Positions 23,703 through 29,229 of a stretch of DNA of 64,000 nucleotides are shown one piece after another. Source of the DNA: Polynucleobacter sp. AM-25C3 (GTDB lineage Bacteria; Pseudomonadota; Gammaproteobacteria; Burkholderiales; Burkholderiaceae); assembly GCF_018882335.1 (NCBI RefSeq), contig NZ_JACVOS010000003.1, forward strand, positions 124,001 through 188,000, in the 5' to 3' direction. The notes beneath the pieces were generated by a model. That model did not search any database, had not been told where the DNA came from, and was given only the letters and a program-made list of their open reading frames with translations. A program made the position numbers and the translations under genes. Position 1 is the first letter of the stretch. Each line of letters opens with the position of its first letter.

Positions 23703-24227
23703 TCAAGTGGAAAGTTCGAGTTGCATGATTAAGGTGTTGACCAATTGATTGACGCTGGGTTTCCCCGTTTCAATCACATGGTCAGCAATTTCGCGATAAA
23801 GAGGGTCGCGAATGGTATATAGATTTTCTAAAATCTTTTTTGCATCGCCATTTCTAAGAAGCGGTCTACCTTCGCCGCCCTTGGTCCGATGCCATAGCTC
23901 CATCGGATTAGCGTGGAGATAAATGACTGTGCCTCTTTCGTTGAGGAATTGACGATTCTCAGGAAGCAATACGGCGCCACCGCCGGTTGCCAAAATGACA
24001 TCTTGCTCTGCGGTAATATCTTTAATGGCCTGGGCTTCGCGCTTACGGAAGCCGTCTTCACCTTCCATTTCGAAAATCACGGGGATCTTGACGCCACAAC
24101 GTTCTTCAATGACGTGGTCAGCATCCAGAAAGCGACGACCTAATTTCTTGGCCAACAATTTGCCGACGGTCGACTTCCCAGCGCCCATGAGGCCAATCAG
24201 AAATATATTGTTCGATGCAGAGTTCAC
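23703..24227 (-). CDS. aroK: Shikimate kinase
   Basis: Phosphorylates shikimate to shikimate 3-phosphate. The start is a GTG at 24227 just after a G-rich stretch. The 174 residues have the Walker [10 protein letters not shown] (residues 12-20), the shikimate-binding LDADHVIEE and TGGGAV, and the lid arginines in GEGRPLL. It is 12 bp downstream of pilQ and just before aroB, the standard pilQ-aroK-aroB order. Expression may depend on the pil promoter upstream. Confidence 0.96.
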
Positions 24228-24239
24228 CCCCTGATTTTA

Positions 24240-25361
24240 TTAGTGTTTATCTAGGACGGTGGGAGTTAAGAAGACTAATAGTTCAGTTTTATCAGCCAAT
24301 TTGGATTTATGGCGAAACAAATGCCCAATTAATGGGATGTCGCCTAGTAGGGGCACCTTAACCTCATCATCTCGTTCGGTGGTTTGAAAAATACCGCCAA
24401 TGATGGCTGTACCCCCGTTTTCAACGGTTACTTCAGAGCTGAGATTTTTGGTGTCAATGGCATACCCCTGCTCAGTTTTCATGCCAACAGTATCTTTATT
24501 AATGCTCACCAACATGGAAATCTTTCCATCGGGATGAATTTTGGGTAAGACTTCTAGCCGTAAATTGGCTTTGCGGAACTGCAATTTGCTGCCGCTTTGG
24601 GAACTCACTTGGTAGGGAAGTTCTGTCCCCTGTTCAATGGTTGCCTTGACCTGATCCCCAGTCATGATCCTGGGGTTAGAGAGGATCTTGCCTTGCCCAT
24701 CAGATTCCAGGGCTGATAACTCCATTTGTAGGAGTCTGGCGGCGTTCCTGGAAACCAGGGTAGCTGCTAAGGTTGCTGGATTGAATCCAGCTAAACCAGT
24801 TCCAGCTAAATCTAGATTGGCGCTTGCAGCTTGGTCTGGGTGAATGCCGATACCGTTAGCCTGATACCCCAATTTGATGCCTAGCTCCCGGGCAAAGCGT
24901 TGATCCGCCTCCACAATGCGAGCTTCTATGAGGATCTGGCGAGGGCTATTAATATGATCGCCTCCAAAAGGGAGGGCGGCATCCTCTCGACGAAATTTCT
25001 GGAAGCTTTGAATTTCTGCATGGGGGCCAATCCAGTAAATATCCCCATTTCGGACGAGGCGCAATCCTCTGCTGGCGATGATGGAGTGGAGGGCGGTTTG
25101 CCAGGGGGTGTCCTTGAGGTCGACTGAGATCTTCCCCTGGATAGACTCGCTGAGGAGGAAGTTGGAATTCCCCATTTTGGCCAAAACCTGCAAAAGCTCG
25201 GTCAACTCAATCTCACTAAATTGGAGGCTGATACGGGTATCTTTTGGGATGCTGGAAGAATTGAGTCCTAGATGATTTCCTAGGGCTGGACTGAGTAAAA
25301 AAACCAGCAATAAGGGGAGCAGGATGGTGGTGGTTTGTCGAAGGATTTTCAAGAATGTCAT
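24240..25361 (-). CDS. pilQ: Minimal PilQ-like secretin
   Basis: Outer-membrane secretin of the type IV pilus or DNA-uptake class. It has 373 residues, about half of a usual PilQ. Residues 1-28 are a hydrophobic leader, residues 42-112 an STN (N0) domain, and from about 140 the secretin domain, ending with GGTAIIGGIFQTTERDDE and VPLLGDIPLIGHLFR. No AMIN domains and no N1 domain can be seen; about 28 residues join N0 to the secretin. The start overlaps the upstream gene by four bases (ATGA). The position before aroK supports pilQ. Confidence 0.85.
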   Translation of the reverse strand: MTFLKILRQTTTILLPLLLVFLLSPALGNHLGLNSSSIPKDTRISLQFSEIELTELLQVLAKMGNSNFLLSESIQGKISVDLKDTPWQTALHSIIASRGLRLVRNGDIYWIGPHAEIQSFQKFRREDAALPFGGDHINSPRQILIEARIVEADQRFARELGIKLGYQANGIGIHPDQAASANLDLAGTGLAGFNPATLAATLVSRNAARLLQMELSALESDGQGKILSNPRIMTGDQVKATIEQGTELPYQVSSQSGSKLQFRKANLRLEVLPKIHPDGKISMLVSINKDTVGMKTEQGYAIDTKNLSSEVTVENGGTAIIGGIFQTTERDDEVKVPLLGDIPLIGHLFRHKSKLADKTELLVFLTPTVLDKH

Positions 25362-26038
25362 TCCGAGCGGGTTGATTTAAAGCGAATAGATTTACCTTTG
25401 GGGTGGGCCAATATGGCCACTCCTTTTTCGGCTTGAGTCAGTCGCCATTCACCCAAAGCAAGACCATCTTTGCCCACCATCAGCGTGGTTTTACCATTGT
25501 GAAAAAAGGCCTGCTCCGCCGCCCCCATTCGAGTAAGGCCCAAATATCTCCAGCGACGTAGCTCGGTCTCATGTGGGATCATGACTGGCTTGCTTTGGGG
25601 TGCGGATACGGTTGGTTTTACCTCTATTGAGTGAATACTCACCTCTATTTCATCCAAAGCGATATATAAATCTTCTTGTTCTGATGCCCAGTCATTCTGG
25701 GCTAAAGCAAGTTCATTCTTTAGGGTCGATATTTGGCTTTGCAGGCCGTTGAGCTCTAGTTCAGAGCTTGCCTTACTGGACTCCAAGAGAAAAAATACAG
25801 CGGCGACTGTGAGCGCAAATAGTGCCCCAATAATCAAGATGGAGATATTTTTTGGCCCATTAAGGTGAAGGTCGGAAATAGAAAAAGACGATGCCTTTGG
25901 CGTAACTTTACTTTCGGGCACCGGCCTTGGGGATGTTGATGATTTACGAATGCCATGGGGGTCAGGAATGGCAGGGTCATCCCCCAGCTCACTCAAAATG
26001 TCATCAAAAGATTGGGGGGAAATGTGGCGTGAAGGCAT
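25358..26038 (-). CDS. Single-span membrane protein with PilP/GspC-like end (pilus locus)
   Basis: No confident family. ATG 26038 gives 226 residues; a GTG at 26083 would add 15. It has a polar N-terminus, one membrane span at about residues 65-85, a likely coiled coil at 90-140, and a C-terminal domain (160-220) with WRYLGLTRMGAAEQAFF and GLALGEWRL that resembles the strand pattern of PilP and GspC periplasmic domains. It overlaps pilQ by four bases and faces mrcA, the place where pilMNOP normally lie. It could be a fused or reduced PilO/PilP. Function is inference from place and shape. Confidence 0.6.
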   Translation of the reverse strand: MPSRHISPQSFDDILSELGDDPAIPDPHGIRKSSTSPRPVPESKVTPKASSFSISDLHLNGPKNISILIIGALFALTVAAVFFLLESSKASSELELNGLQSQISTLKNELALAQNDWASEQEDLYIALDEIEVSIHSIEVKPTVSAPQSKPVMIPHETELRRWRYLGLTRMGAAEQAFFHNGKTTLMVGKDGLALGEWRLTQAEKGVAILAHPKGKSIRFKSTRSE

Positions 26039-26140
26039 GCCATATTGTTCGCTCTGGGGATGGCAAAAACGATCAGGGAACACGGAATTGCATGTCAGAA
26101 AACCCCACCTCAGAAATTTTCAAACAAGGGTTTTGGAGCT

Positions 26141-26178: not shown

Positions 26179-28512
26179 ATGGCTCTAACTCCAAAAGACA
26201 AGCCGCCTTTAAACCGACGGTTTAACCGACAGCCTGATAGACGTCCTGGTCAGCATAGAGCGGAGCATTCCGCGTCGAAGTCGGGAAGTAATCCCCTAAT
26301 TAAAGCCTTGCTGATAATCAGCATGGTCTTTGCAGTGGTCATTACTTTGTTGCTGGGCTACGCCTTCTTGATAGCCAAACCGAATTTGCCAAAGATTTCA
26401 GCCTTGGTGGACTACAACCCTAAAACACCATTGCGTATCTATACGGCCGATAAGGTCCTTATTGGAGAGTTTGGGGAAGAGCGCCGTAAGGTTATTCCTT
26501 TGAATGAGATCCCCATGAGCATGCGTAATGCAGTCTTGGCCATTGAGGATGATCGGTTTTACTCCCATGGCGGGGTTGATTATGTGGGGATCCTAAGAGC
26601 TGCCTTAACCAATTTACGCGGCAACCTTTCGCAAGGTGCATCAACGATCACGATGCAGGTGGCGCGCAATTTCTTCTTAAGTAATGAGAAAACCTTCAGC
26701 CGTAAGATCTACGAGGTTCTGCTCTCTTGGGAAATCGAGTCCCAATTAAGCAAAGACAAGATTCTGGAGATCTATATGAATCAGATCTTCTTGGGTCAGA
26801 GGGCTTATGGATTTTCGAGTGCGGCTCAGATCTATTTTGGTAAAGAATTAAAAGACATCACGATTGCTGAATCTGCGATGTTGGCTGGCTTGCCTAAAGC
26901 GCCTTCAGCCTATAACCCAATAAGCAATTTCCGTCGCGCCAAAATCCGCCAAGAATATATCCTGCAGCGGATGCGCGATTTGTCTTACATCACTCCTGAG
27001 CAGTATCAGATTGCCATGGCAGAAGAGTTGCATATTCGTGGTCTCGGAAATGAATTTAGTACGCGCGCGGACTTCGCATCAGAGATGGTGCGTCAGCTAC
27101 TGTTTACTCAATATGGTGAGGCCATCTACTCCCAAGGAATCGATGTTTACACCACGATCTTGAAGGCAGATCAAGATGCGGCATACAAGGCGGTACGTCG
27201 CGGTATTTTTGAATATGACTTGCGCCACGCTTATCGTGGACCCGAGGGATTCATTGAGCTACCGGAAGATACGGTTAAGCGTCAACGCGCGATTGATGAG
27301 GCTTTATTGGCTTATCCACAGTTAGATGATTTGCAGTCGGGTGTAGTACTCGATATCAAGCCAAAAGAAATGCAGGTCATGATTTCTACTGGAGATACGA
27401 TCACTCTCAAAGGTGAGGGCATGAAACTTGCCACCGCCTCTTTAACCGATAGCACTCAACCTAAAAAACGTTTACGTCCTGGCGCCATCGTGAGGCTGTT
27501 ATCTGATGGCGGGGTTTGGAAGCTGGCGCAATTACCGCAAGTAGAAGCCGCCTTTGTTTCTATGAACGCAGAGACAGGCGCAATTCTCTCCTTGGTGGGC
27601 GGCTTTGATTTCCGCCGCAATCAATTTAATCACGTGACTCAGGCTCAGCGCCAACCCGGATCTTCCTTTAAGCCATTTATCTACGCCGCTGCCATTGAAA
27701 AAGGCTTTTCTCCGAGCACGATGGTGAATGATGCGCCATTGTCTATTGGCAGTATGGAAACTGGCAGCCAAGCTTGGGAGCCAAAGAACTACGACGGCAA
27801 ATACGAGGGCATGATGCGTTTACGTACTGCCTTGGCTAAATCCAAGAACTTAGTTTCTGTTCGCATCATTCGTGCTATCGGGCCTTCCTATGCGCAAGAA
27901 TATATTCAACGTTTTGGCTTTGAAGCAGAGAAGCACCCTCCTTATTTAACAATGGCTTTGGGTGCGGGTTCTGTAACCCCTTTGCAAATGGCATCTGCCT
28001 ATAGCGTGTTTGCTAACGGCGGCTATCGTGTAGACCCGTACTTAATTAATAAGATGACGGATTCAAAAGGTACGGTTTTATTTGAAGCAAAACCTACCCA
28101 TGCGCGTGAAGATGCTACTCGCGTATTGGATGCGCGCACTGCCTTTGTAATGGATAGCATGCTGCAAGAGGTAACAAAGACTGGGACTGCGGGTAGTGCT
28201 AGGGGAAAATTAGGCCGCAGTGACATCGCGGGTAAAACGGGTACAACCAATGATTCGCACGATGCCTGGTTTGCGGGATACAACCCTAAAGTCGTTGCAA
28301 TCGCATGGATTGGTTTTGATAAGCCTGCAAGTCTAGGTGATCGTGAAACTGGCGGCGGTCTCGCCTTGCCAATGTGGATCTCTTACATGGGAACCGCTTT
28401 GAGAGATGAGCCACAACAGGCGCGTGAAGTGCCGGCAGGCGTTACTCAGGTTGATGGTGATTGGTTTATCCCTGAGTTTTCTAATAATGGTGGTGTGCGC
28501 GAACTTCAGTAG
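26179..28512 (+). CDS. mrcA: Penicillin-binding protein 1A (bifunctional)
   Basis: Class A penicillin-binding protein that polymerises glycan and cross-links peptidoglycan in the periplasm. The 777 residues have an inner-membrane anchor at about 40-67, a GT51 glycosyltransferase domain with EDDRFYSHGGVD and QGASTITMQVARNF, an OB-like insertion, and a transpeptidase domain with SSFK, SKN and KTGT motifs. It is divergent from the reduced pilus genes, the usual ponA-pilM place in beta-proteobacteria. No ribosome binding site is seen; see the adjacent -10 box. Confidence 0.97.
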   Translation: MALTPKDKPPLNRRFNRQPDRRPGQHRAEHSASKSGSNPLIKALLIISMVFAVVITLLLGYAFLIAKPNLPKISALVDYNPKTPLRIYTADKVLIGEFGEERRKVIPLNEIPMSMRNAVLAIEDDRFYSHGGVDYVGILRAALTNLRGNLSQGASTITMQVARNFFLSNEKTFSRKIYEVLLSWEIESQLSKDKILEIYMNQIFLGQRAYGFSSAAQIYFGKELKDITIAESAMLAGLPKAPSAYNPISNFRRAKIRQEYILQRMRDLSYITPEQYQIAMAEELHIRGLGNEFSTRADFASEMVRQLLFTQYGEAIYSQGIDVYTTILKADQDAAYKAVRRGIFEYDLRHAYRGPEGFIELPEDTVKRQRAIDEALLAYPQLDDLQSGVVLDIKPKEMQVMISTGDTITLKGEGMKLATASLTDSTQPKKRLRPGAIVRLLSDGGVWKLAQLPQVEAAFVSMNAETGAILSLVGGFDFRRNQFNHVTQAQRQPGSSFKPFIYAAAIEKGFSPSTMVNDAPLSIGSMETGSQAWEPKNYDGKYEGMMRLRTALAKSKNLVSVRIIRAIGPSYAQEYIQRFGFEAEKHPPYLTMALGAGSVTPLQMASAYSVFANGGYRVDPYLINKMTDSKGTVLFEAKPTHAREDATRVLDARTAFVMDSMLQEVTKTGTAGSARGKLGRSDIAGKTGTTNDSHDAWFAGYNPKVVAIAWIGFDKPASLGDRETGGGLALPMWISYMGTALRDEPQQAREVPAGVTQVDGDWFIPEFSNNGGVRELQ

Positions 28513-28524
28513 TTCGTTCTAGCG

Positions 28525-29229
28525 ATGGCAAGGCAAGCGCGCACCGTTATTCCCGGCCAAGCAATGCATGTCATGGTCCGCGGCAATAACCGAGAAATTC
28601 TCTTTTTTAGCGATGCTGATCGCCGCATGTATTTAGATTGGCTGCGAGAGGCAGCGAAGCAATTTGGTAGTGCCGTACATGCTTTTGCCCTAATGCCAAA
28701 TCATGTCCATCTGTTGATCACCCCTCAGAATGCAGATTCACTCGCTAAAACGATGCAGTCGTTGGGAAGGCGCTATGCCCAGTATTTCAATCGGCAGCAT
28801 CATCGCTCCGGAACTATTTGGGAGGGGCGCTACCGTTCTTCTTTAATAGACCCTGACTATTTTTTGCGTTGTCAGCGCTATATAGAACTCAATCCTGTCA
28901 GGGCCGGTTTTGAATCCAGCCCCCAGGATTCGACTTGGACTAGCTTCCCCTCCCATATCGGTGGTAATGCAGAGCCATGGCTGGTGGATCATCAACACTT
29001 TTGGAAGTTAGGTAATACCCCTTTTGAGCGGCAAATGATTTGGGCAGCATTCGTGAAGGATGGCGCCCCGCATTGGGAAGACCGACAAATTACCGAAGCA
29101 CTCATTCGATCTAAGCCTTGGGTAAGTGATATTTACGCCAAAAAGCTATTTAAAGACGACCCTGATCAAGCACTAATTCGTTATCGGGGCCGGCCAAAGA
29201 AATTAATTCAAATAAATTCAATAACTTAA
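28525..29229 (+). CDS. REP-associated tyrosine transposase (RAYT)
   Basis: HUH-type single-strand nuclease of the Y1/IS200-like superfamily, the RAYT branch, which acts on REP hairpins. The 234 residues are intact. RGNNREILFF at 19-28, the HUH pair in MPNHVHLL (H60, H62), the catalytic tyrosine in GRRYAQYFNR (Y84 or Y87) and the family mark YIELNPVRAG (119-128) are seen. It is 12 bp after mrcA on the same strand. A 14-bp inverted repeat lies 45 bp downstream. RAYTs are usually single-copy and vertically kept; whether this is active is unknown. Confidence 0.9.
   Translation: MARQARTVIPGQAMHVMVRGNNREILFFSDADRRMYLDWLREAAKQFGSAVHAFALMPNHVHLLITPQNADSLAKTMQSLGRRYAQYFNRQHHRSGTIWEGRYRSSLIDPDYFLRCQRYIELNPVRAGFESSPQDSTWTSFPSHIGGNAEPWLVDHQHFWKLGNTPFERQMIWAAFVKDGAPHWEDRQITEALIRSKPWVSDIYAKKLFKDDPDQALIRYRGRPKKLIQINSIT

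Follow-up and report, generated by a model that had tools for sequence, protein, structure and literature searches.

The two genes that lie between mrcA and aroK in Polynucleobacter sp. AM-25C3 probably encode the outer-membrane and linker half of a type IVa-type competence pilus that, in the genus Polynucleobacter, is pared down yet still works. Judged from sequence, DNA uptake appears with good probability to be the likeliest use of this pilus. The window analysed here is a 64,000-nucleotide stretch of the genome, on the minus strand of which the order after mrcA is P2, pilQ, aroK and aroB, P2 being the gene directly upstream of pilQ; the two reading frames overlap by 4 bases. This is the site of the type IVa pilMNOPQ locus (mrcA-pilMNOPQ-aroK-aroB), with one gene in the place of four. 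The initial annotation had described just two genes at this position and had taken them for a reduced pilus locus, and both statements hold, a single gene besides pilQ being found where relatives use pilMNOP. The common start of the P2 orthologues corresponds to an ATG inside the longest reading frame, so that the protein is probably 226 residues long (Table 1); this numbering is used below.

Table 1. Features of the mrcA-aroK interval and its flanks in the window
Feature	Position	Strand	Description	Basis
pilQ	24240..25361	-	373 aa	ORF; profile matches, alignment, model
P2, longest frame	25358..26083	-	241 aa, from GTG at 26083	ORF
P2, from conserved ATG at 26038	25358..26038	-	226 aa	orthologue starts
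P2, first 32 codons	25943..26038	-	near-invariant peptide	
aroK (shikimate kinase)	23703..24227	-	flank of canonical pilMNOPQ site	ORF and family match
mrcA (PBP1a-type)	26179..28512	+	divergent flank of canonical pilMNOPQ site	ORF and family match

The two-gene layout is genus-wide. The short PilQ is matched in 97 of the 101 Polynucleobacter genomes, a figure that includes a few matches to fragments at contig ends, to broken copies or to another secretin. P2 was found by sequence in 79 of the 101, and in each of the 18 genomes inspected by position, out of the 22 missed, one gene of 170-270 aa occupies the P2 slot. Where both ORFs are present, mrcA and pilQ lie 583-1010 bp apart in Polynucleobacter (22 of 25 loci, two of them with a broken pilQ) and 1818-3985 bp apart outside the genus (82 of 87 loci); the other 3 and 5 loci, in which one of the two ORFs is absent, were left out, and the lengths are approximate since they were measured from longest-ORF starts. 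A gap that is short in Polynucleobacter and long in its relatives argues that the reduced layout is not due to chance. The flanking genes nearest in the tree (97%) are those of Polynucleobacter sp. 31A-FELB (L182), to whose PilQ that of the window is 90% identical. pilQ is under strong purifying selection, with a dN/dS of 0.054 (99 of 435 pairs with usable dS), compared with 0.030 for aroK (141 pairs) and 0.209 for P2 (98 pairs). pilQ or P2 is broken or lost in four genomes (G083, G017, G022 and G188; loci L138-L141), the last three of which are small single-contig genomes that, at a guess, belong to host-bound strains.

PilQ begins with a hydrophobic N-terminus, followed by an N0 domain (about residues 43-113), a helix and linker (about 114-140) and a secretin domain that extends to residue 370. 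Pfam recovers Secretin at 217-370 and STN at 67-113, with a sub-threshold match to N0, and detects neither AMIN nor Secretin_N in the protein. Its score against the NCBIfam profile for PilQ (TIGR02515) is 309.6 bits, over the cut-off of 284.35, whilst that against GspD (TIGR02517) is 170.1 bits, under the cut-off of 351.35; the HofQ profiles of NCBIfam match below their cut-offs. Among 68 distinct PilQ proteins of the genus (67 from loci, plus that of the window), Secretin is detected in all 68 and STN in 67, and AMIN and Secretin_N in none (E <= 0.01). When the window protein is aligned with its longer relatives, the stretch that it lacks falls between residues 135 and 136, at the junction of the N0 and secretin domains. 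In the model (mean pLDDT 67.9, about 90 in N0) a single helix and a loose linker connect N0 to the secretin strands, and there is no domain of the Secretin_N type. The proposed loss of AMIN and of an N1 domain, by which the Pfam Secretin_N domain was meant, is thus confirmed by profiles, and that of Secretin_N by alignment and model as well. Secretin_N is the domain named N3 in PMC7545093. Among the 197 proteobacterial T4aP secretins treated in that paper, the prevailing architecture consists of AMIN repeats followed by N0, N3 and secretin; 27 have no AMIN, and essentially all, a few exceptions apart, belong to complete pilMNOPQ clusters. Loss of AMIN was therefore already known; it is the additional loss of Secretin_N that departs from the dominant architecture described there.

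P2 alone matches no Pfam or NCBIfam family over cut-off. It can be divided into an N-terminal peptide (residues 1-32), a span with a long helix (63-137) and a PilP/GspC-type HR domain (156-224). The model, made from a 10-sequence alignment (mean pLDDT 73.1, pTM 0.33), shows a short helix at 8-18 within an N-terminus of low confidence, then a helix at 63-137 and a beta domain at 164-222, with pLDDT values of 85-89 across residues 161-220. When the end of P2 was searched with Foldseek, the top four matches were PilP or GspC structures at probability 1.00 and E 0.016-0.025 (PilP of Neisseria, chain Pa of the T4aP machine model 3jc8, chain C of the GspC-GspD complex 3oss, and PilP of Pseudomonas); nothing was matched at E <= 0.001. 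VIA-align gave Z scores of 8.8 for 2y4y (PilP), 8.6 for 3jc8, 8.5 for 2lc4, 8.4 for 2y4x and 8.0 for 3oss, against 6.5 for the best unrelated row, which is helical, although a best Z of 7-8 is common among models without a clear match. As modelled, then, the C-terminal domain of P2 has the HR fold of PilP and GspC, and it is carried on a protein with one predicted span. The earlier description of a single-span protein with a helical middle part and an end like that of PilP or GspC, standing where PilMNOP would be, agrees with these results.

Profile comparison by hhalign points the same way. The ends of 20 deep-branch P2 proteins match the ends of 29 PilP proteins at 94.8% probability (0.4% for the reversed control), and pooled P2 ends match PilP at 85.5-89.0%; 36 main-clade ends gave no match to the PilP profile (0.2-1.9%). 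Main-clade and deep-branch P2 match one another over nearly their full length (98.2%, with 6 deep members). As the main-clade ends by themselves lack a PilP match, the tie between P2 and PilP comes from the deep-branch members, the main-to-deep match and the fold. Three broken or partial pieces (two from L139, one from L141) were dropped from the P2 profiles, and the PilM, PilN, PilO and PilP profiles were made from the 29 listed loci that passed the length filter. PilP and GspC are tied as the nearer parent of P2. The suggestion that PilO and PilP had been merged into one protein fails, because P2 carries no PilO signal: full-length P2 profiles reach just 2.6-14% probability against PilO (reversed controls, where run, 0.6-3.2%), and the middle of the protein is modelled as one long helix. 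Deep-branch P2 also matched PilN, at 59.9% with 6 members and 41.6% with 20 (reversed, 0.9%); these matches are located on the span and helix, and were put aside as likely compositional. Comparison with the sequences of solved structures returned only chance-like matches at E 0.03 and worse, to coiled coils and interleukin-2.

The most conserved part of P2 is its N-terminus. Across 30 sequences, median identity to the P2 of the window is 0.97 in residues 1-32, 0.23 in residues 33-62, 0.25 in the span (63-86), 0.49 in residues 87-137, 0.42 in residues 138-156 and 0.73 in residues 157-226. The peptide is polar and lies well ahead of the span. In the 28 of 30 sequences that passed a motif filter, 25 of its 32 positions are invariant, a count that leans towards the motif because the two failing sequences were dropped. 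The codons at the invariant positions vary, and the constraint is therefore on the peptide; a nucleotide-level cause can be set aside. Synonymous diversity is 0.383 in the peptide and 0.495 in the last 70 codons. Most deep-branch members begin with a related sequence, roughly M-x-K/R-R-x-I/L-T/S-x-x-S/A-F/Y-D, and a loose form of the pattern fits 51 of 56 P2 proteins; NLLP or NLLT is found in none of the 56. Two related genomes (G045 and G077; loci L130 and L131) do not have the usual N-terminal peptide.

The remainder of the machine is encoded elsewhere in the genome. As the initial annotation recommended, pilB, pilC and pilD were searched for, and they were found, short, in one locus with coaE (L084), an arrangement shared with the type IVa pilus. 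PilB (356 aa), PilC (357 aa) and PilD (166 aa; 7781-8281 of L084, minus strand) match T2SSE, T2SSF and Peptidase_A24, respectively. MshEN was not detected in this PilB; it was detected in just one of four relatives' PilB proteins scanned, so that its absence is not special to Polynucleobacter. In five relatives PilB is 534-575 aa long in three and 415-431 aa in two. PilD, which in relatives is 279-305 aa long and has A24_N_bact in all three proteins scanned, shows no A24_N_bact match here, and methylation of the pilin N-terminus may therefore be missing or done elsewhere. The major pilin, of 167 aa, has Pilin and N_methyl domains, and there is a cluster of minor-pilin-like genes, one member of which has GspH and N_methyl domains. 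T2SSE has five matches in this genome: a GspE-type protein, the short PilB and three on contig C1. These last lie close to a second secretin (a 591-aa frame) at about 42-51 kb of C1 (L003), and the group may belong to a type IVb or conjugative pilus. A contig of 8.5 kb (L264, C31) carries, towards its edge, GspD- and GspE-type genes with, by eye, a GspF-like frame, a type II secretion set separate from the mrcA-aroK pilus locus.

The corresponding search for pilM and pilN returned nothing from the window's genome (PF11104 and PF05137), and no PilO was found within the mrcA-aroK locus by ORFs or profiles. PF11104 matches do occur in 31 of the 41 genus genomes searched; most are weak (about E 1e-4 to 1e-3), at positions 172-236 of 355-aa frames that we read as MreB, and the strong ones, in G002, G022 and G035, lie in other clusters. 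PF05137 is matched in 4 of the 41, by frames of 557-580 aa in another cluster away from the pilQ locus. The extra cluster of G002, G022, G035 and G012 (L074-L076, L281-L284) holds these PilN-match frames, with PilM matches in three of the genomes; in G002, G022 and G035 it also holds a secretin frame of 484-543 aa. The locus thus resembles its type IVa counterpart in site, in a PilQ over the profile cut-off and in a PilP-type HR domain just upstream of pilQ. It differs in its missing PilM and PilN matches, in a PilQ without AMIN and Secretin_N, in a PilD without A24_N_bact and in a PilB without MshEN, the last also undetected in three of the four relatives scanned.

A scheme for the working of such a pilus can be proposed. 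In Neisseria meningitidis the C-terminal domain of PilP binds the N0 domain of PilQ, not N1, and GspC likewise binds N0 of GspD (PMC3441751). HR and N0, the partners in this binding, are the two domains kept in Polynucleobacter. The HR domain of P2 would dock on N0 of PilQ, as in PilP and GspC, the helix would bridge towards the inner membrane, and the conserved N-terminal peptide would bind the motor or platform, PilB or PilC, in the cytoplasm. In this way one protein could do the linking work of PilMNOP. The pilus would extrude through the short PilQ and bring DNA to ComEA and ComEC. A bolder reading is put forward tentatively, at somewhat short of even confidence: that this is a diderm pilus that works with neither PilM nor PilN, and probably lacks PilO too, in which P2 forms the direct link between the N0 ring and either the assembly ATPase or the platform via its near-invariant 32-residue peptide, the peptide having taken over once the 'NLLP' peptide of PilN and PilM itself were lost, and in which the pore is a secretin of two domains, N0 and secretin.

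PMC6668835 and PMC10191384 describe PilMNOP as essential to the assembly of type IVa pili in Neisseria. A thinner linker has precedent, since PMC10191384 describes monoderm Com pili (ComGA, ComGB, ComC) that have core parts only, without PilMNO, and TcpR and TcpD of type IVb pili in the place of PilMNOP. Unlike the Com pilus, Polynucleobacter keeps a secretin and a linker protein. It is similar to the TcpRD system, as described, in having fewer proteins in the place of PilMNOP, but P2 has the HR fold of PilP. That the pilus genes are under selection, and yet PilM and PilN have been dropped, points to HR on N0 and the N-terminal peptide as the indispensable contacts, and the Polynucleobacter pilus offers a small natural system for reconstitution. 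No published account of the locus was found in the literature on Polynucleobacter pili and competence or on secretins without N1, in a search whose coverage excluded most subscription journals.

A use in DNA uptake is favoured by the presence of competence genes. ComEC is found in the window's genome and in 87 of 101 genus genomes, and all 41 genomes searched have a short, ComEA-sized frame with HHH_3 (122-184 aa; 141 aa in the window's genome, on contig C5), which we read as ComEA. Losses of the two systems are associated. In a set of 79 genomes with completeness of 90% or more and contamination of 5% or less, nine had no ComEC match; loss or breakage of pilQ or pilB was seen in 4 of these nine and in 4 of the 70 others (Fisher p = 0.0047, uncorrected for phylogeny). 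When G017 and G022, which are small, are left out, p is 0.013; among the 66 genomes at least 97% complete the counts are 3 of 7 and 1 of 59 (p = 0.0029). The damaged set comprises G017, G022, G045, G054, G077, G083, G089 and G094, of which G045, G054, G077 and G094 are draft assemblies in 100-260 contigs; gaps may account for some of the absences. G079, with a stop in its pilB match, and G095, with a stop in its pilQ match, were counted as intact; if one or the other is taken as damaged, p becomes 0.0006 or 0.008. G083 has no comEC or pilB match and just debris of pilQ and P2. In G045 and G077 pilQ is present in its short form together with the neighbouring gene, but no short PilB was found; the only PilB match of G045 is a 471-aa frame of the GspE type. 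ComEA-sized frames remain in ComEC-less genomes such as G017 and G031.

These observations also bear on the strongest alternative, a reduced type IV pilus used in adhesion or in contact with surfaces, with ComEC and ComEA serving another route or persisting as relics. A major pilin with a Pilin domain and minor-pilin-like genes would suit such a pilus, as would the 5 of 9 ComEC-less genomes that retain both pilQ and pilB. The wide occurrence of ComEC and of ComEA-sized frames, and the association of ComEC absence with pil damage, tell against it; moreover, four of the 41 genomes (G010, G011, G016 and G039) have a single T2SSE match, which is the short PilB, and so presumably no PilT for twitching. 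This alternative is considered unlikely, if still worth some weight.

The initial annotation had also raised a different secretin-based export machine, which would here be built, like type II secretion or otherwise, from PilQ and a GspC-like protein. GspC has a short N-terminus, one span, a linker and an HR domain, a layout that P2 shares, and P2 matches 3oss nearly as well as it does PilP. P2 differs from GspC in sitting with PilQ and in its genus-specific N-terminal peptide. Since a separate GspD-/GspE-type set is present in the genome, PilQ scores far higher against the PilQ profile than against that of GspD, the major pilin is of the pilus type, and ComEC and a ComEA-sized protein are at hand, an export machine seems very improbable. 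Least probable of all, with hardly any weight left to it, is a decaying remnant without function, where the initial annotation had spoken of a DNA-uptake remnant. The damage or loss seen in G017, G022, G083 and G188, and the shortness of the parts relative to those of the relatives examined, might speak for it, but the frames are intact and widely retained, pilQ is under strong purifying selection, the P2 peptide is conserved, and all 68 genus PilQ scanned have an intact Secretin domain while lacking AMIN and Secretin_N.

The competence pilus preferred here can be set beside known systems. At this site the HofMNOPQ and ComA-F loci of Enterobacteria and Pasteurellaceae have a short competence secretin that lacks AMIN; HofQ retains an N1-type domain and the MNOP genes, whereas both are gone from the Polynucleobacter locus. 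P2 has the HR-type C-terminal fold of PilP, a lipoprotein, but looks anchored by its own span, and it has a polar N-terminal peptide and a long helix.

Within the family, a quick tree of AroB, AroK and MrcA (43 rows, SH-aLRT only, with an author-chosen outgroup) recovered a clade with Cupriavidus as the sister group of Polynucleobacter (support 84, unstarred); the two PilQ proteins scanned from it (L113, L115) have all four of AMIN, N0, Secretin_N and secretin. Other reductions are found in a second clade (98, starred), of groups g8, g10, g11, g12, g18, g20 and g25. There PilQ lacks AMIN and keeps Secretin_N in 5 of 5 scanned (L114, L117, L118, L126, L127), and the gene ahead of pilQ may encode a PilO region combined with an HR end. 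Its PilO score is 22.5 bits in L126 (cut-off 22) and 18.5 in L117, with 11.7 in L278 of group g9 and no PilO match in L127. The ends of these four proteins match g18 at 97.9%, deep-branch P2 at 95.4% and PilP at 84.4% (reversed PilP control, 0.1%). In g18 the order is PilM (37.5 bits, L118), a 179-aa protein and PilQ, the 179-aa protein having an FNLLPYR peptide ahead of its span and an HR-like end in 3 of 3 sequences. A peptide of this NLLP type stands at the start of PilN, where 24 of 29 fit the strict pattern and four of the other five read NLLPYH; it seems, from the sequences, to be absent where PilM has gone. In two other genera of the family, g21 (L123) and g22 (L122), PilQ lacks Secretin_N and pil-sized ORFs still stand upstream of pilQ, those of g21, as profiled in L121 only, matching PilM, PilN and PilP. 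Reduction thus seems to have arisen more than once, and relatives of the same family show other routes to it: a PilO region with an HR end, an NLLP peptide with an HR end, and a separate loss of the N1-type domain. On the far side of the locus, directly 3' of mrcA, the window encodes a 234-aa protein with an HVHLLITP stretch (28525-29229, plus strand), which looks like a REP-associated (Y1-type) transposase.
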